52,384 nucleotides of DNA from Clostridia bacterium. Lineage in GTDB: Bacteria; Bacillota; Clostridia; Christensenellales; Aristaeellaceae. Positions 29,713 through 38,092 of this stretch are shown here, piece after piece. The notes under the pieces are model-generated. The model saw only the letters and a list, made by a program, of their open reading frames with translations. It did no database searches and was not told the origin of the DNA. Each line of letters starts with the position of its first letter. Within the stretch, counting starts at the first letter, position 1. The position numbers and the translations under genes are program-made. Where the stretch lies: the NCBI GenBank assembly GCA_030526225.1, contig JAUNDF010000005.1, positions 1-52,384 of the forward strand. Direction: 5' to 3'.

Positions 29713-30624
29713 ATGCTGAAGTATACAGTCAAGCGTATATTGTTAGCGATTCTCACGGTTTTCATCATCGCAGCGGTTACGTTCTTTGCCATGAACGCAA
29801 TTCCCGGCGGTCCTTTTTCTACTGAAAAGGCCAAGGACCCTGCCGTAGAAGCTGCCCTGATGGCCCGTTACAATCTTGATAAGCCTGTGGGCGAGCAGTT
29901 TGTGCTCTACCTCGGCAAGCTGCTGCAGGGTGACTTCGGTGTATCCCTGAAGACCGGCCGTGACATTTCCACCACCATCTTCTCCAAGTTTGCCGTATCT
30001 GCCAAGCTGGGCGGTACTGCAGCGCTGTGTGCCGTGCTGGTGGGTGTGGTGCTGGGTTCCATTGCAGCATTGTGCCGCAACCGTTGGCCTGACCGCCTGA
30101 TTATTTTCCTGACCACCCTGTTCGTATCCGTGCCCAGCTTTATTTTGGCCACGGTGCTGCTGCTGATTTTCTGTCTGCAGCTTGGCTGGTTCCCGGTCTG
30201 GAGCCCCAAGAATCCGTCCATGGTGCTGCCTGTCATTTCTCTGATGCTCTCTCCCATGAGCTACATCACCCGACTGACCAAGACCAGCATGCTGGATGTG
30301 CTCGGTCAGGACTATGTCCGCACCGCCCGTGCCAAGGGTGTGCGCCAGTCTCTGGTGATTTTCAAGCATGCACTGCGCAATGCCCTGATTCCCGTCATTA
30401 CCTATGTCGGTCCCATGGTGGCCAGCATTCTGACCGGCTCCATGGTGGTTGAGACCGTATTCACCATCGGCGGTCTGGGCACTGAGTTCGTAAAGTCCAT
30501 CAACAACCAGGACTACACCATGATTATGGGCACCACCATTTTCCTTGCCGTCCTGATGGTTGTGGCAACGCTGATTTCCGACCTTGTGTACAAGCTGGTC
30601 GACCCCCGCATTACCTTTGATTAA
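29713..30624 (+). CDS. oppB: Oligopeptide ABC transporter permease OppB
   Basis: 303 residues with six membrane helices. The N-terminus (LKYTVKRILLAILTVFIIAA) and the EAA-like loop (DYVRTARAKGVRQSLVIFKH) are classical for DppB/OppB. It forms the membrane channel with OppC. An AGGAGCG site precedes the ATG. Confidence 0.95.
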   Translation: MLKYTVKRILLAILTVFIIAAVTFFAMNAIPGGPFSTEKAKDPAVEAALMARYNLDKPVGEQFVLYLGKLLQGDFGVSLKTGRDISTTIFSKFAVSAKLGGTAALCAVLVGVVLGSIAALCRNRWPDRLIIFLTTLFVSVPSFILATVLLLIFCLQLGWFPVWSPKNPSMVLPVISLMLSPMSYITRLTKTSMLDVLGQDYVRTARAKGVRQSLVIFKHALRNALIPVITYVGPMVASILTGSMVVETVFTIGGLGTEFVKSINNQDYTMIMGTTIFLAVLMVVATLISDLVYKLVDPRITFD

Positions 30625-30637
30625 GGAGAAGCACGCA

Positions 30638-31747
30638 ATGAGCCAGAAAGATACACTTCCCAAGAAGAATCCGCTCAGCCTCCAGCTTGATTTGAACAAG
30701 TTCGGCAGTGCAGAGGGACAGATTGATCCCGCGCTGTTTGCTCCCGCCACCGAGGAGGAAAAGCAGCAGCACGAAACCATGCGTGAATCCACCACCTTCT
30801 TCCGTGATGGTATGCGCAAGCTGCGCAAGAACCCCCTGGCAATGATCAGCCTTGTTGTGCTGCTGGTGCTGGTGCTGATGATTGTGTTCATCCCCATGTT
30901 CTACCCCTATCAGTATTCCGAGATGATTACCGTCAACGGCAAGCGTGACAAGACGGCCAAGAACCTGATGCCCTTCGAGTACTCCAAGAACGAGCTGAAG
31001 GCCATTGAGCAGGGTGAAAAGATTTTCCCCCACATCTTCGGTACCGACGAGCTTTGCCGTGACTACTTTATCCGCGTCATCTACGGCACCCGCGTATCGC
31101 TGATTGTCGGCCTCTTCGCCAGCCTGATTGTGCTGGTCATCGGCCTCCTTTACGGTGCAATATCCGGTTATGCCGGCGGCAAGGTGGATATGGTGATGAT
31201 GCGCATCGTCGACATCATCTACTCTCTGCCCGACACGCTGATGGTCATCCTGCTGAGCGTGGTGCTCAATCAGGTGGTCTCCGGCGCACTGCAGGGCACA
31301 TTCCTGGCCAAGATCGGTCCCAACATGATTTCTCTGTTTATCGTGTTCGGTCTGCTGTACTGGGTGGGCATGGCCCGTCTGGTCCGCGGTCAGATTCTGT
31401 CCATCAAGAATAACGAATATGTGCTGGCCGCCCGCGCCATGGGTGCCAAGCCCGGCCGCATCATCCGCCGCCATATTCTGCCCAACTGCATGTCCGTTAT
31501 CTTCATCTCTGTGGCTCTGCAGATTCCTTCCGCCATCTTCACCGAAAGCTTCCTCAGCTTCATCGGTCTGGGCGTACAGGCTCCCATGCCCTCTCTGGGC
31601 TCTCTGGCCAACGCTGCCCGCGGCGGTATGCAGAACTTCCCCTACAAGATGATTTTCCCCGCCCTGTTCATCTGCCTGATTGTGCTCAGCTTCAACCTGC
31701 TGGGTGACGGTCTGCGCGATGCCTTTGACCCCAAACTGAGGAGATAA
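30638..31747 (+). CDS. oppC: Oligopeptide ABC transporter permease OppC
   Basis: 369 residues from ATG 30638 (AAGGAGAAG upstream). A cytosolic N-terminal stretch of about 75 residues precedes the first helix (MISLVVLLVLVLMIVFI). An extracytoplasmic insert (HIFGTDELCRDYFIRVIYGT) and the EAA loop (YVLAARAMGAKPGRIIRRHI) identify OppC. It lies 13 bases after oppB. Confidence 0.95.
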   Translation: MSQKDTLPKKNPLSLQLDLNKFGSAEGQIDPALFAPATEEEKQQHETMRESTTFFRDGMRKLRKNPLAMISLVVLLVLVLMIVFIPMFYPYQYSEMITVNGKRDKTAKNLMPFEYSKNELKAIEQGEKIFPHIFGTDELCRDYFIRVIYGTRVSLIVGLFASLIVLVIGLLYGAISGYAGGKVDMVMMRIVDIIYSLPDTLMVILLSVVLNQVVSGALQGTFLAKIGPNMISLFIVFGLLYWVGMARLVRGQILSIKNNEYVLAARAMGAKPGRIIRRHILPNCMSVIFISVALQIPSAIFTESFLSFIGLGVQAPMPSLGSLANAARGGMQNFPYKMIFPALFICLIVLSFNLLGDGLRDAFDPKLRR

Positions 31748-31751
31748 GAAC

Positions 31752-32756
31752 ATGTCTGAACATACACCTTTGCTGCAGGTCAAGAACCTGTGCACTACCT
31801 TTGATGTTGATGCCGGTGAAGTTCGTGCTGTCAACGGCGTCTCCTTTAACCTGGAAAAGGGCAAGGTGCTGGGCATTGTCGGCGAATCCGGCTCCGGCAA
31901 GTCCGTAACCGCTTATTCCATCATGCGCATTCTGGTGGAGCCCGGCAAAATCAAGAGCGGCGAGATTCTCTTCAACGGTGAGAATGTGGTCAACTTCTCC
32001 GAAAAGAAGATGCGTGAATTCCGCGGCAAGCGCGTGTCCATCATCTTCCAGGACCCCATGACCAGCCTGAACCCCACCTTCACCATCGGCAATCAGCTGC
32101 GGGAGGCCATCCTGCTGCACACCGACCGCACCCGTGAGCAGGCCAATGCCCGCGCCAAGGAGATGCTGGAGCTGGTTGGCGTAAACGAGCCCGAAAAGCG
32201 CCTGAAGCAGTATCCCCATGAGCTGTCCGGCGGTATGCGTCAGCGCGTGATGATTGCCATGGCCCTGGCCTGTGAGCCCGACATCCTGATTGCAGACGAA
32301 CCCACCACCGCTCTGGACGTGACCATTCAGGCACAGATTCTGGAGCTGATGCAGGAGCTGCAGAAGAAGCTGGGCATGGCCATCATCATGATTACCCATG
32401 ACCTGGGCGTTATTGCCGACATGTGCGATGAAATCATCGTCATGTATGCCGGCCGTGTGTGCGAGCGCGGTACTGTAGACGAAATCTTCTACAACCCCAA
32501 GCACGAATACACCAAGGGTCTGCTGCGCTCCATTCCCCGCCTGACCCGCGAGCACGAGAAGCTGGTGCCCATCTCCGGCTCTCCCGTGGACCTGACCAAC
32601 ATGCCCGCCGGCTGCGCCTTTGCTTCCCGCTGCAGCGCCGCCATGAAGGTGTGCCTGCATCACAAGCCCGAGGAGCTGCTGATTAACGATTGTCATGCCG
32701 CTTCCTGCTGGATGAATGTCAAGCCGATTCTGAACAAGGAGGATAAGGCCGAATGA
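31752..32756 (+). CDS. oppD: Oligopeptide ABC transporter ATPase OppD
   Basis: 334 residues. Walker [10 protein letters not shown], signature [15 protein letters not shown], Walker [13 protein letters not shown] and ITHDLGV are complete. The C-terminal oligopeptide extension with Cys ([15 protein letters not shown]) is present and may hold an iron-sulfur cluster as in related proteins. The stop overlaps oppF by four bases (ATGA). Confidence 0.96.
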
Positions 32757-33718
32757 GTGAGCATTTGCTTGAGGTCAAAAACCTGAAACAGCATTTCCCG
32801 ATTAAGACCGGCTGGTTTTCCTCTACGCCCCTGAAGGCCGTTGACGGTGTTTCCTTCGACATTGATGAAGGCGAGACCCTTGGTCTGGTAGGCGAGTCCG
32901 GCTGCGGCAAGACCACGGTCGGCCGTACCATCCTGCACCTGTACAAGCCCACCTCCGGTGAGGTTATCTATCAGGGCAAGCAGATTACCCCTGCCAACGT
33001 AAAGGATTTCCGCAGGGAAATGCAGATTGTTTTCCAGGATCCCTACTCCTCCCTCAACCCCCGCATGACGGTGGCTGATATCGTAGGTGAGCCTCTGGAT
33101 ATCCATCACCTGTATGCCAACAAGAATGAGCGCATGGAAAAGATTACCCATCTGCTCAATCTGGTGGGCCTGAACAGCGACCATGCCCGCCGCTATGCCC
33201 ACGAGTTTTCCGGCGGTCAGCGTCAGCGCATCGGCATTGCCCGCGCACTGGCTGTGGACCCCAAATTCATCGTGTGCGACGAGCCTGTATCCGCTCTGGA
33301 CGTTTCCATTCAGGCACAGGTCATCAACACCTTTGAGGAACTGCAGGAAAAGCTGGGCATTGCTTATCTGTTCATTGCGCACGACCTGCTGGTTGTGCAG
33401 CACATTTCCAAGCGCATTGCCGTTATGTATCTGGGCAAGATTGTTGAAATCGGCGAGGCAAATGATATCATCTACAGCCCCAGCCATCCCTATACTCAGT
33501 CCCTGATTTCCGCTATCCCGATTCCTGACCCCAACACCGCCCGGGAAAAGCAGCGGATTCCGCTCATCGGCGATGTTCCCAGCCCCATGCATATGCCCTC
33601 CGGCTGCCCCTTCCGTACCCGCTGCCGCTATGCCACCGAGCAGTGCGCCAAGGAATGCCCCAGCCTGCAGGAGATTGCACCCGGTCATCAGATCGCTTGC
33701 TGGAATCCCCACATTTAA
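32753..33718 (+). CDS. oppF: Oligopeptide ABC transporter ATPase OppF
   Basis: 321 residues. Walker [10 protein letters not shown], signature [15 protein letters not shown], Walker [13 protein letters not shown] and IAHDLLV, then the Cys-bearing C-terminal extension ([15 protein letters not shown]). It works with OppD as a heterodimer. Confidence 0.96.
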
Positions 33719-33967: not shown

Positions 33968-35647
33968 ATGAAAAAGCTGCTTGCCATGCTGCTGGCTGTT
34001 GCCATGATGGCCGGCACTGTATCCGCTTTTGCTGATGCAGGCTCCGAACCCAACTGGACTGAATTCGATGCTCTGATTGCTTCTATCAAGAGCGAAACCG
34101 ACTTCGCCAAGCGTGAAGCCCTCATGCACCAGGCTGAGGACATGCTGATGGAGACCGGTGCCCTCGTGCCCCTGTACTATTACAACGATATGTACATGCA
34201 GAAGGCTTCTGTGGAAGGCGTTTACGCCAACCTGTTCCAGACCAAGTTCTTCCAGTACGCCACCAACGGCGATGCTACCAACCTGAACATCAACCTGGCT
34301 TCCGAGCCCGACTATGTCGATCCCGCTCTGAACTCCTCCGTTGACGGTGCCTGCATCGCTGCCCTGACCTTTGGTGGCCTGTACACCTACGACGCAGAAG
34401 GCGCTCTGGTGCCCAACTTCGCCACCGGCTACGAAATGTCCGATGACGGTCTGGTTTACACCTTCACCCTGCGTGACGGCCTGAAGTGGTCCGACGGTTC
34501 CGACCTGACTGCTGCCGACTTCGTTTGGAGCTGGAAGCGTGCCGCCGCTACCGAGACCGCTGCTGACTACTCCTACATGTTCAACGGCATCAAGGGCTAT
34601 CCCGATGAGCTGGCTGTGACCGCCTCCGAAGACGGCAAGCAGTTCACCGTGGAACTGACCGCTCCCTGCGCCTACATGCTGGACCTGGCTGCTTTCCCCA
34701 CCTTCTTCCCCGTGAAGCAGGATGTTGTTGAAGGCGCTGAAGGCTACAAGGATGCCGACGGCAATGTGGTTAAGCCCAATGCCTGGGCTCTGGAAGCCGG
34801 CTATGTGACCTCCGGTGCCTACACCCTGACTGAGTGGAAGCACAACGAATCCATGGTCTTCACCAAGAACCCCAACTTCTGGGATGCCGAGAACGTGAAG
34901 CTGGAAACCATCACCATGATGCTGTCTGCTGATGACACCGCTATCTACGGTGCATATCAGGCCGGCGACCTGGACTTCTGCGACTCCGTTCCCAACGACC
35001 TGGTTGAGTCCCTGAAGGAAGATCCCGAGTTCCACCTGATTTCCGCTCTGGGCACCTACTACATAATCTTCAACGTGAAGAGCCCCCTGTTCGACGGCAA
35101 GACTGTGGAGCAGGCCAACGCTATGCGTCAGGCTTTCTCTTACCTGATTGACCGTGACTACATCATCGAGACTGTTGGTCAGTGCGGCCAGGAAATGGCT
35201 AACGCCTTCATTCCCTCCGGCATGGCTGACGGCAACGGCGGCGTTTTCAAGGCCAACGATGCTGATTACACCTATCCCGATGCTGATACCGTTGGCTACT
35301 ACAACGGCGAGGTTGATGAGGCCAAGGCCATCGAGCTGCTGGAGTCCGCCGGCTTCGAGTTTGTTGACGGCAAGCTGTCCGATGCTACCCCCATCTCCTT
35401 CGAGTACCTGACCAACGAGTCCTCCGGTCACGTTGCCATCGCTGAGTGCATCCAGCAGGACCTGTCTGCTATCGGCATCACCATGACCATCCGCACCTGC
35501 GACTGGAACGTCTTCCTGGAAGACCGTAAGAGCGGCAACTATGACGTTGCCCGTAACGGCTGGATCGCTGACTTCAACGATCCCATCAACATGCTTGAAA
35601 TGTGGACCACTGACTCCGGCAACAACGATGCTCAGTTCGGCCGCTAA
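33968..35647 (+). CDS. oppA: Oligopeptide-binding protein OppA, apparently circularly permuted
   Basis: 559 residues. A signal peptide (MKKLLAMLLAVAMMAGTVSA, type I-like, no lipobox Cys) is followed at residues 29-99 by what is normally the C-terminal end of clostridial OppA: WTEFDALIASIKSETD, HQAEDMLMETGALVPLYYY and FFQYA. The usual N-terminal start (NLNINLASEPDYVDPALNSS) then follows from about 104, with the whole middle. The protein stops at GNNDAQFGR, the point where the moved segment would normally attach. It should bind peptides for OppBCDF. Missing lipidation and the new order are unusual. See the findings. Confidence 0.88.
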   Translation: MKKLLAMLLAVAMMAGTVSAFADAGSEPNWTEFDALIASIKSETDFAKREALMHQAEDMLMETGALVPLYYYNDMYMQKASVEGVYANLFQTKFFQYATNGDATNLNINLASEPDYVDPALNSSVDGACIAALTFGGLYTYDAEGALVPNFATGYEMSDDGLVYTFTLRDGLKWSDGSDLTAADFVWSWKRAAATETAADYSYMFNGIKGYPDELAVTASEDGKQFTVELTAPCAYMLDLAAFPTFFPVKQDVVEGAEGYKDADGNVVKPNAWALEAGYVTSGAYTLTEWKHNESMVFTKNPNFWDAENVKLETITMMLSADDTAIYGAYQAGDLDFCDSVPNDLVESLKEDPEFHLISALGTYYIIFNVKSPLFDGKTVEQANAMRQAFSYLIDRDYIIETVGQCGQEMANAFIPSGMADGNGGVFKANDADYTYPDADTVGYYNGEVDEAKAIELLESAGFEFVDGKLSDATPISFEYLTNESSGHVAIAECIQQDLSAIGITMTIRTCDWNVFLEDRKSGNYDVARNGWIADFNDPINMLEMWTTDSGNNDAQFGR

Positions 35648-35662
35648 TTCCTGAAACCTTCG

Positions 35663-35693
35663 CCCTTCCCGGGTTCCCGGGGAGGGTTTTTCT
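35663..35693 (+). terminator. Rho-independent terminator of oppA
   Basis: CCCTTCCC (35663-35670) pairs with GGGGAGGG (35679-35686, one G-T pair) and is followed by a T-rich stretch. Confidence 0.8.
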
Positions 35694-35785
35694 ATTGCCT
35701 GCTTTATCGGGAAGATTTCTTCGTGCCATCTTCATCCGGATGTGGTATAATTATCGTAGTGTTTTTAGAAAGGGGAGGATATCGC

Positions 35786-38092
35786 ATGACAAACTGCAGC
35801 GTGTCGGTTCGGATGCTGGTGGAGTTTTCCATCCACGGCGGTGATATTCTCCCCGGCGGCAGCATCAAGGATATGCAGGATGGCATGCTCGGTCATAAGG
35901 CGCGGCAAAAGCTGCTGGGTGATGGCTGGGAAAGCGAAGTCTCCCTGACCCTTGATTTGCCGGAAGCGGACGGCATTGCACTCCGTGTCCTTGGCCGCAT
36001 GGACGCTTTCCATGATGGCGAGCTGCCTGTGATTGAGGAAATCAAGGTCAAAAAGGGCAGGGGAGAAATCACACTGGACCCTGCCCACCGGGCGCAGGCT
36101 GTGTGCTACGGACATATGCTCTGCACACAGGAACACATTCCGCAGGTGATGATTCGCATTGCCTATGTCTCTGTTGCCGGCACAATCCTTGAGCTGTTTG
36201 AGGAGATTCTTTCTGCATAGCAATGCGCGGCAGAATTTGATGCACTGGTACAGGCATATATGCGCCGTCTGGTGCTGATTGACCGTCACCATACCCTGCG
36301 GGATGAAACCTTGCTGCACCTTCAATTCCCTTTCCCGGAATACCGTCAGGGACAGCGTGAAATGGCGGCACAGGTGTACACGGCCATTAAGCGGCAGAAA
36401 AGACTGTTTGCGTCACTGCCCACCGGTACAGGCAAGTCTGTGGCTACGCTGTTTCCGGCAGTCAAGGCGCTTGGTACGGGATTGACGGAGCAAATCTATT
36501 ATCTGACAGCTCGTACAACCCAGCGTCAGGGTCCGCTTTAGGCACTGCGGATGATGCGCCTTCAGCCCCTGAAGCTGTGGACACTGGTGCTGGATGCCAA
36601 GGACCGTCAATGCCCTGCGAAGACCATGTGCCATCCTGACTATTGTCCAAGGGCCAAGGGACATTTCTTTCGGGATGGTGCCGCCATCGAAGAAATGATG
36701 CAGCAGGACCATTGGTCGCCCGAAGCCATCCGTGAAACGGCTGACAAGCATGATTTGTGTCCCTTTGAATTCAGCCTTTCCCTGGCGGAAATCGCCGATG
36801 TGACCATTTGTGACTACAATTATGCCTTTGATCCTGCGGTGCATATTCAGCGCATTTTTAATCGCCCCGGTGAAGTGACACTGCTTGTGGACGAAGCCCA
36901 TAATCTCCCCGACAGAGCCCGCGATATGCTCAGCGGCCATGTGGACGGAAGAAAGATTCGCAAGCTGCGCACCGCAGCAGGGAAACTGCTGGGCCGAAGC
37001 CATGACCTGTACAAAAGCATGACCCGCATGCTCAATGCCATTGTAGATTTGCCCATAGAAGATGGCGCTGCCGAAGGCTGTTTGAGTGACCTCCCGCAGA
37101 GCATTGACCGTGCCGTACAATAGCTGGCAGATGCGCTGGCACAGGCCCGCTATGAGCACATCCAGTGGGGCGAGGAAAAAGAGCTGGTGACGGAAATCAC
37201 CTACGATGTCTTCTCTTTTCTTCGCGCCAGACGGCGGGAAACACGGGACTATGTCTTCATTTGGGAAGGGCGGGACAGGAAGACAAGGCGCATTACCGCC
37301 TTTGCGCCCGATGTATCCGACTTTCTGCACGATACCACCGCGCCCATGAACGGCGTGGTCTGCTTTTCAGCCACCATGCACCCCATTGATGACATGAAGA
37401 TGCTCATCGGCGCAGATGAGGATGATGCCTGCTTCTCCATGCCATCACCTTTCCCGCCCGAGAATCTGCTGGTACTGCAGAAAAACATCAACACGCGATA
37501 TCAGCAGAGGGATGCCACTTTGCCGCAGATTGCCGACTGCATCCGTCAGCTGACGGAAAGCCATCCGGGCAAATACATGGTCTTTTTCCCCAGCTTTGCG
37601 TACATGGAAAAGGTGACGGAATTGCTGGATGAGGATACATACATGATGCAGCAGCGTTCCATGTCCTTATCCCAGCGGGAAGAATTTCTCGCGCGTTTTC
37701 TGCATGAGTCATCATAGGTGTTGGGGCTGTGTGTGCTGGGCGGCGTGTTTTCCGAAGGCATCGACCTGCCAGGAGATGCGCTGGACGGTGTCATCATCGT
37801 CGGTGTCGGACTGCCGCAGGTGGGCATCTTCCGCGAAGTATTGCGATAGGTACTGGAAAAGAAGTTCGGTCAGGGCTTCCTGTACGCCTACATGATTCCG
37901 GGGATGCAGAAGGTGGCACAGGCGGTGGGCCGCGTCATCCGCACCGAAACGGACAGAGGCGTTGCATTGCTGCTGGATGACCGCTATCCCTACGCATCCT
38001 ACCGCAAGCTGATGCCAACCCACTGGCAGGTCCAGCACGGAAATATCATAGAAGCCCTGAAGGAATTCTGGCACGAAAAAGAAACGCCGTAA
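35786..38092 (+). CDS. XPD/DinG-like Fe-S helicase with N-terminal PD-(D/E)XK domain; five in-frame TAG codons
   Basis: 768 residues if TAG is sense. N-terminal Cas4/RecB-like nuclease motifs are GRMD (Asp 73), EEIKVK (Glu 84-85, Lys 87) and HRAQAVCYG. Helicase motifs are PTGTGKS (212-218), four Cys likely binding 4Fe-4S (276, 282, 287, 325), VDEAH (368-372), FSATMHP, FSEGIDLPGD, GVGLPQ and VGRVIRTETDRG. TAG codons are 145, 252, 446, 644 and 688 (36218, 36539, 37121, 37715, 37847). All motifs lie in one frame with no TAA, TGA or shift until 38090. The ATG has GAAAGGGGAGG upstream. It unwinds DNA, probably in repair or recombination; it is followed by guanine deaminase and an alkyl-DNA repair gene. 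Confidence 0.9.

Follow-up and report, generated by a model that had tools for sequence, protein, structure and literature searches.

The open reading frame (ORF) at positions 33968-35647 of the window, i.e. the whole stretch of 52,384 nucleotides analysed here, is, as judged by sequence homology, a circularly permuted OppA. We regard it with high confidence as a genuine, working protein, secreted to serve as peptide receptor for OppBCDF, the importer whose genes lie just upstream, although data on function, binding and expression are lacking. This reading is carried by what could be established directly: the order of the parts, the conservation of that order in a clade, the operon, purifying selection in relatives, the predicted fold and the retained Trp and Asp of the peptide site. 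The features concerned are as follows.

29713-30624, + strand: oppB permease (PF00528, PF19300)
30638-31747, + strand: oppC permease (PF00528, PF12911; start picked by eye)
31752-32756, + strand: oppD ATPase (PF00005, PF08352)
32753-33718, + strand: oppF ATPase (PF00005, PF08352)
33968-35647, + strand: OppA of 559 aa, circularly permuted at the type A cut site (ORF, PDB matches, homologues, canonical profile, PF00496)
33968-34033, + strand: signal peptide (aa 1-22) without a lipobox Cys, probably cleaved behind SAFA; read from the sequence only
34049-34261, + strand: moved piece (aa 28-98), in canonical OppA the helices and strand at the C-terminal end (8are_A 455-510, 8ay0_A 451-506, canonical profile 435-503)
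34244-34285, + strand: junction at which the former C-terminus meets the former N-terminus, KFFQYATNGDATNL, at about aa 93-106 (alignments A2, A3)
34274-35644, + strand: body (aa 103-559), comprising canonical OppA from its N-terminus to the end of domain II, plus the greater part of domain III (PDB, 1ola, profile)
35618-35644, + strand: new C-terminus GNNDAQFGR, with the cut in the loop preceding the moved helix (sequence, homologues, profile)
35662-35687, + strand: terminator-like hairpin, then a T run (2 found vs. 1.5 expected in shuffles, weak alone)

When the window protein was searched against the PDB with phmmer, B. subtilis OppA (8are_A) was matched in two stretches, residues 19-450 by query positions 103-555 and residues 455-510 by positions 31-86, and DppE (8ay0_A) likewise (24-444 by 106-553; 451-506 by 31-86, domain E 1.2e-7). 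On a canonical clostridial OppA profile (506 positions, built from 22 canonical relatives) the ORF aligned first with positions 435-503 and then with 3-433, each part once. The canonical N-to-C domain order is thus not met, and the swapped profile order makes the window protein a permuted derivative homologous to OppA, not a canonical member. The preliminary description of this DNA had placed about 70 C-terminal residues of OppA right after the signal peptide, followed by the normal N-terminal start and an end at GNNDAQFGR, with all parts present once. The PDB and profile matches bear this out, including the match of the N-terminal piece to the OppA C-terminus, whose absence would have refuted it; circular permutation is supported as the reading and proves to be clade-wide, with similar events at other cut sites in the family. 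The same matches rule out the moved piece being a chance or unrelated helix, and in relatives the piece was found at its expected place far above chance (tblastn E about 1e-16 to 1e-40). A Shine-Dalgarno-like AGGAGG lies upstream of the ATG, and since the terminator-like hairpin begins 15 bases 3' of the stop codon, the gene ends where it had been placed. Annotation by domain models hides such permutations: Pfam gives a single, ordinary SBP_bac_5 match (PF00496, E 1.9e-83, 281 bits vs. a cut-off of 32.4), to the body, and NCBIfam gives no match at or above its curated cut-off.

The AlphaFold2 model of the window protein (pLDDT 91.8, pTM 0.87, 59 sequences) is a confident OppA fold, with OppA, MppA and DppE as the best structure matches in the PDB. 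Residues 1-442 of Salmonella OppA (1ola) were aligned with model residues 97-558 (Z 30.0, 418 residues, rmsd 2.4), that is, with the body only. As Foldseek and VIA align in chain order, they cover the body alone and did not place the moved piece on the OppA C-terminus. With that qualification, the model together with the 1ola match shows the three-domain, two-lobe fold. Packing of the moved piece at the place of the OppA C-terminus is predicted from sequence homology and model confidence, without a 3D superposition. For a protein of cut-site type C (see below) the model was obtained with pLDDT 80.8 and pTM 0.78 (9 sequences), and 1ola 1-272 was matched by its C-terminal half in an order-bound search that covers that half only. 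W532 and D535 of the window protein are invariant in the 59 rows of alignment A1, in a region aligned with GWLGDFNDP of 8are. By motif spacing they were equated with W498 and D501, which are named as the peptide site of AliD (PMC11192437). The Trp and Asp of the site for the peptide N-terminus are thus kept at the level of sequence.

The oppB, oppC, oppD and oppF genes precede the permuted oppA on the same strand, as expected of an operon. Counting repeat fetches, opp genes adjoin 104/104 type A, 10/10 type C and 12/15 type B ORF entries, and 31/36 canonical entries too. The window genome is 79.8% complete and consists of 136 contigs. At 35723-37717 and 38092-39372 genes are seemingly broken by frameshifts, as pseudogenes or through local sequence errors; downstream of oppA an amidohydrolase (guanine-deaminase-like) gene is split over two ORFs and a DinG/XPD-like helicase gene over at least three (DEAD, DEAD_2, Helicase_C_2).

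A scan of 84,980 species genomes gave 377 relatives, of which 80, a set biased to the query, were kept. The moved piece precedes the body in 80/80 kept loci, from separate assemblies and with best segments 58-76% identical, among them that of a named isolate, Proteiniclasticum aestuarii SCR006 (L065). Such homologues of the same order had been called for as a check, and because all 80 share it, the named isolate included, the order is not an artefact of assembly, the outcome that would have overturned the preliminary description. Within the window's own family the join profile matched 58/308 genomes (one row, cut by a contig end, starts within the join). In an alignment of 18 diverse rows the join proved conserved, and mean column identity is 59% over the 59 full-length rows of alignment A1. 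In 12/12 permuted gene pairs dN/dS was 0.02-0.24, indicating purifying selection; for the moved N-terminal piece alone it was 0-0.28, computable in 11 of the 12. Type A has spread to many families and persisted.

In a circularly permuted protein, wherever it was cut, the former ends of the chain are linked, C-terminus to N-terminus; a join profile (A2, then A4) therefore detects any cut, apart from those that fall inside the profile. Canonical proteins match one side of the join only (roughly A4 1-94 or A2 42-177) and are separable. The whole join was matched in 10/391 genomes of a class-wide sample, in 6/291 of a second draw (other profile, overlapping genomes) and in 11/398 of a phylum sample, one of the latter with an in-frame stop; around new cases, permuted proteins were found in 5/41 (family of G644), 18/148 (order of G653) and 5/13 (order of G744). 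Free of query bias are the shares from the family survey and from the class-wide, second-draw and phylum samples. Three cut sites emerged in canonical profile numbering: type A between 433 and 435 (two fused doubles and 93 distinct ORFs, of which some are truncated at contig ends), type B between 345 and 347 (14 distinct ORFs and 3 more intact) and type C between 262 and 263 (9 distinct ORFs). No fourth site was seen among the join-profile matches. Single-contig genomes with a permuted OppA include G344 (type B) and G644 (type C). Type B and C proteins also match SBP_bac_5, in two stretches. In another single-contig genome (L177) a type B OppA is split by an in-frame TGA (ORFs at reverse-strand 1150 and 1636), and the canonical OppA L167:1198-3226 has an insertion of about 58 residues in domain II, behind profile position 113.

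Read off the alignments, the cuts lie near residues 443, 357 and 272-290 of OppA. Domain III comprises residues 270-486 (PMC6305025) and alone makes up lobe 2 (PMC11192437); by these limits all three cuts fall in lobe 2, the third near its edge. Both ends of canonical OppA lie in domain I, lobe 1, and the earlier statement that the two ends share a lobe agrees with the same published limits.

For the trees, the pieces were rearranged into one common order and type A was thinned from 97 to 43 rows. Truncated or odd ORFs (L087, L067, L088, L120, L167 and the L014 fragment), the fused doubles L049 and L058, the repeats L092-L100 and L003-L006 were omitted. The 86-row tree further lacks L107, L153, L002, L129, L126 and four repeats or fast copies, and the smaller tree has 46 rows. 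L020, wrongly labelled B in the first tree because of an overlong match, is absent from later trees and approximately unbiased (AU) tests and was counted as type A in the lipobox, neighbour and distinct-ORF tallies. Type A forms one clade beside canonical L130 and L162 and type C L110, and the main type C clade (L102, L106, L135-L138) is placed apart from this region. Type B occurs in two places, each by canonical proteins (L159; L161 and L163). AU tests rejected a single clade holding all type B proteins (p 0.014 for the 86-row set and 1.3e-9 for the 46-row set), a single clade holding all type C proteins (p 1.1e-65) and the placing of L110 with the main C clade (p 7.5e-49). Of two long-branched type C proteins, L107 was rejected as a member of the main C clade (p 2.7e-4) and L153 was not (p 0.054); given these branches and the mixed outcome, neither is required for the count below. 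The tree rows nearest to L107:5395-7032 are type B, a possible hop between cut sites, on a long branch.

A single ancient permutation for all is rejected, since the cut sites differ and neither B nor C is a single clade. The cut sites alone would demand at least three permutation events, and the simplest reading of the trees is five or more, or six if L107 is counted, with the reservation that reversals could mimic extra origins. In a rough model with about 30 loops to choose from, about 2.6% of random draws would confine five events to three of them.

The permuted OppA may have arisen through in-frame fusion of tandem copies, both ends of the double then being trimmed. Adjacent copies were found of canonical OppA in L131 and of type A in L023 (sequence identical to L164). 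Two ORFs of about 1300 aa, L049:724-4593 and L058:634-4593, from metagenome-assembled genomes (MAGs) labelled Chloroflexi and Anaerolineaceae, each hold two type A copies (92% and 85% identical, respectively), laid out as lipobox, long spacer, permuted OppA, a spacer of ~90 residues and a second permuted OppA. The ~90-residue spacer is of low complexity, like the N-terminal tether of the same proteins. The middle of a fused double reads as canonical OppA, with canonical profile matches there from 4 to 504, and such in-frame doubles are likely the expected intermediate of permutation. A leftover of tandem duplication is seen at L014:2979-3518, where a partial and decayed type A copy lies directly before an intact one.

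The route may also run backwards. L115:1854-3608 is a canonical OppA that the trees place inside the type A clade, and at the type A cut site it carries an insert, QLGKDTSNSSAPSWKEYD, in which what looks like the end of a type A protein is followed by a spacer and what looks like a type A start, the trace expected from a return to canonical order via a fused double. Holding type A together without L115 was not rejected (p 0.36 with 86 rows, 0.072 with 46), and L162, of the sister group, likewise has an insert at this site. Reversal in L115 is thus possible, not proven.

Inspection of aa 1-30 of the window protein shows no Cys, hence no lipobox, and its signal peptide is probably of type I. The preliminary description had noted this absence: it holds for the window protein and fails as a family rule, a pattern search having found a lipobox in 61/96 type A ORFs, as in 26/32 canonical, 8/14 type B and 9/9 type C ORFs, with some of the type A hits doubtful as they fall within an ordinary signal peptide. 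The L108 and L174 groups of type B are without lipobox. The median spacer from the Cys to the first core residue is 14.5 residues in canonical proteins and 27, 21.5 and 25 in types A, B and C, uncorrected for kinship, and spacer lengths of canonical and permuted proteins overlap. L024:2257-4602 (start unsure) and L051:2314-4599 have Ala/Glu-rich spacers of about 200-210 residues or more before the permuted OppA, and in L059:2749-4596 and L060:1286-3259 the lipid seems to be replaced by a coiled-coil-like arm on a membrane helix that apparently stays uncleaved.

We infer that the permuted OppA would fold as a normal three-domain, two-lobe receptor because the two former ends of the chain are neighbours in domain I, where a short linker joins them, and that it would close on its peptide and hand it to OppBC as usual. 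The new N-terminus, with its membrane anchor where there is one, would exit from lobe 2, formed by domain III, and no longer from domain I in lobe 1; for the window protein, which has no lipobox, an anchor on lobe 2 has not been demonstrated. Repeated permutation at three loops inside domain III means that OppA either tolerates an anchor at the new point well or gains from it, and this is undecided.

As to why the permutations occurred, not what they are, neutral drift has about an even chance of being right: touching ends, common tandem copies and tolerant loops in domain III would suffice, and the move of the anchor would have no function. It accords with the ends sharing a domain (PMC6305025, PMC11192437), with the reuse of the same three loops by unrelated lineages, with the canonical L115 inside the type A clade, which would make the change reversible, with the canonical order that many relatives retain beside the same opp genes, and with the lack of a lipobox in some permuted proteins. 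It does not readily explain why every cut lies in domain III and none in domains I and II, about 58% of the chain (by a hand estimate, without formal test, five uniformly placed events would all fall in domain III in about 1% of cases), nor the persistence and spread of type A through many families.

Selection for a membrane tether on lobe 2 in place of lobe 1 falls somewhat short of even odds. A lipid is carried by the N-terminus only, so permutation would be the sole way to relocate the anchor. The cuts converge on lobe 2, the lipobox is kept with varied spacers in many proteins of all three types, spacers reach about 210 residues and membrane helices can serve as anchors; the same idea has been proposed for a permuted glucose-binding protein (PMC4990184). 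It is weakened by the missing lipobox in the window protein and in the L108 and L174 groups, and by a spacer difference that takes no account of kinship. That the anchor move was selected for remains an inference from few independent events. Only tentatively do we put forward a fuller picture, in which permutation is recurrent and reversible, proceeds via fused doubles trimmed at the three domain III loops, alters closing or docking through the new tether on lobe 2, and can revert in type A (L115).

A decaying pseudogene or functionless chimera is very improbable: decayed partial copies do adjoin intact ones (L014) and L177, a type B relative, is interrupted by an in-frame TGA, but dN/dS is well under 1 in all permuted pairs tested and the window ORF is intact, with a ribosome-binding site and an operon. 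Misassembly or strain mixture, which the fragmented MAG and the broken-looking genes directly downstream might suggest, is ruled out by the identical order in separately assembled homologues and by the other cut sites in the single-contig genomes G344 and G644.

To our knowledge, natural circular permutations have mostly been isolated, single curiosities. Here one receptor family combines three cut sites, several origins, likely intermediates and perhaps a reversal, in bacteria that are related and with the same transporter genes adjoining, and the surprising part is that three loops of one lobe were used again and again. This combination makes the stepwise origin of permutations testable, and likewise whether it matters to an ABC importer where on its binding protein the membrane tether is attached. 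That OppA was cut and rejoined at only three places hints at a testable rule of protein evolution.

Compared with OppA and DppE of cluster C (PF00496; 8are, 1ola), the window protein shows full-length homology, the same predicted fold, the Trp and Asp of the peptide site and the oppBCDF operon, but its chain is permuted, its N-terminus comes from domain III instead of domain I and it has no lipobox Cys. PrgZ and AmiA/AliB/AliC/AliD share the layout of lipobox, spacer and OppA with many of the relatives, and have three domains and two lobes, but they keep the canonical order and a lobe 1 anchor. The join profile hit 31 sequences in the PDB, none of them across the join, and no report of a natural permutation in an OppA-type (cluster C) protein was found in a literature search that did not extend to subscription papers or preprints and saw its sources only in part.

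The one precedent found is of another class. TpMglB-2 (Tp0684) of Treponema pallidum is a natural permuted glucose-binding protein ('Cluster Bc'), and its authors suggested a link of permutation to membrane tethering (PMC4990184). Its permuted part matches poorly in sequence, and origin from another gene was considered (PMC4990184). Like many permuted OppA proteins it is a lipid-tethered binding protein of an ABC importer, in a clade that includes Gram-positive gut bacteria (PMC4990184). The window protein does not have the Cluster Bc fold (type I/cluster B, sugar-binding, its N-lobe permuted): only PF00496 was found, and the best PDB matches were OppA, MppA and DppE. As far as the papers searched show, permutation was already known for a binding protein of another class and not for one of the OppA type. 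TpMglB-2 differs in class (type I, cluster B), ligand and cut; in the permuted OppA, unlike in TpMglB-2, the moved piece matches OppA directly, and there are three cut sites with repeated origins.
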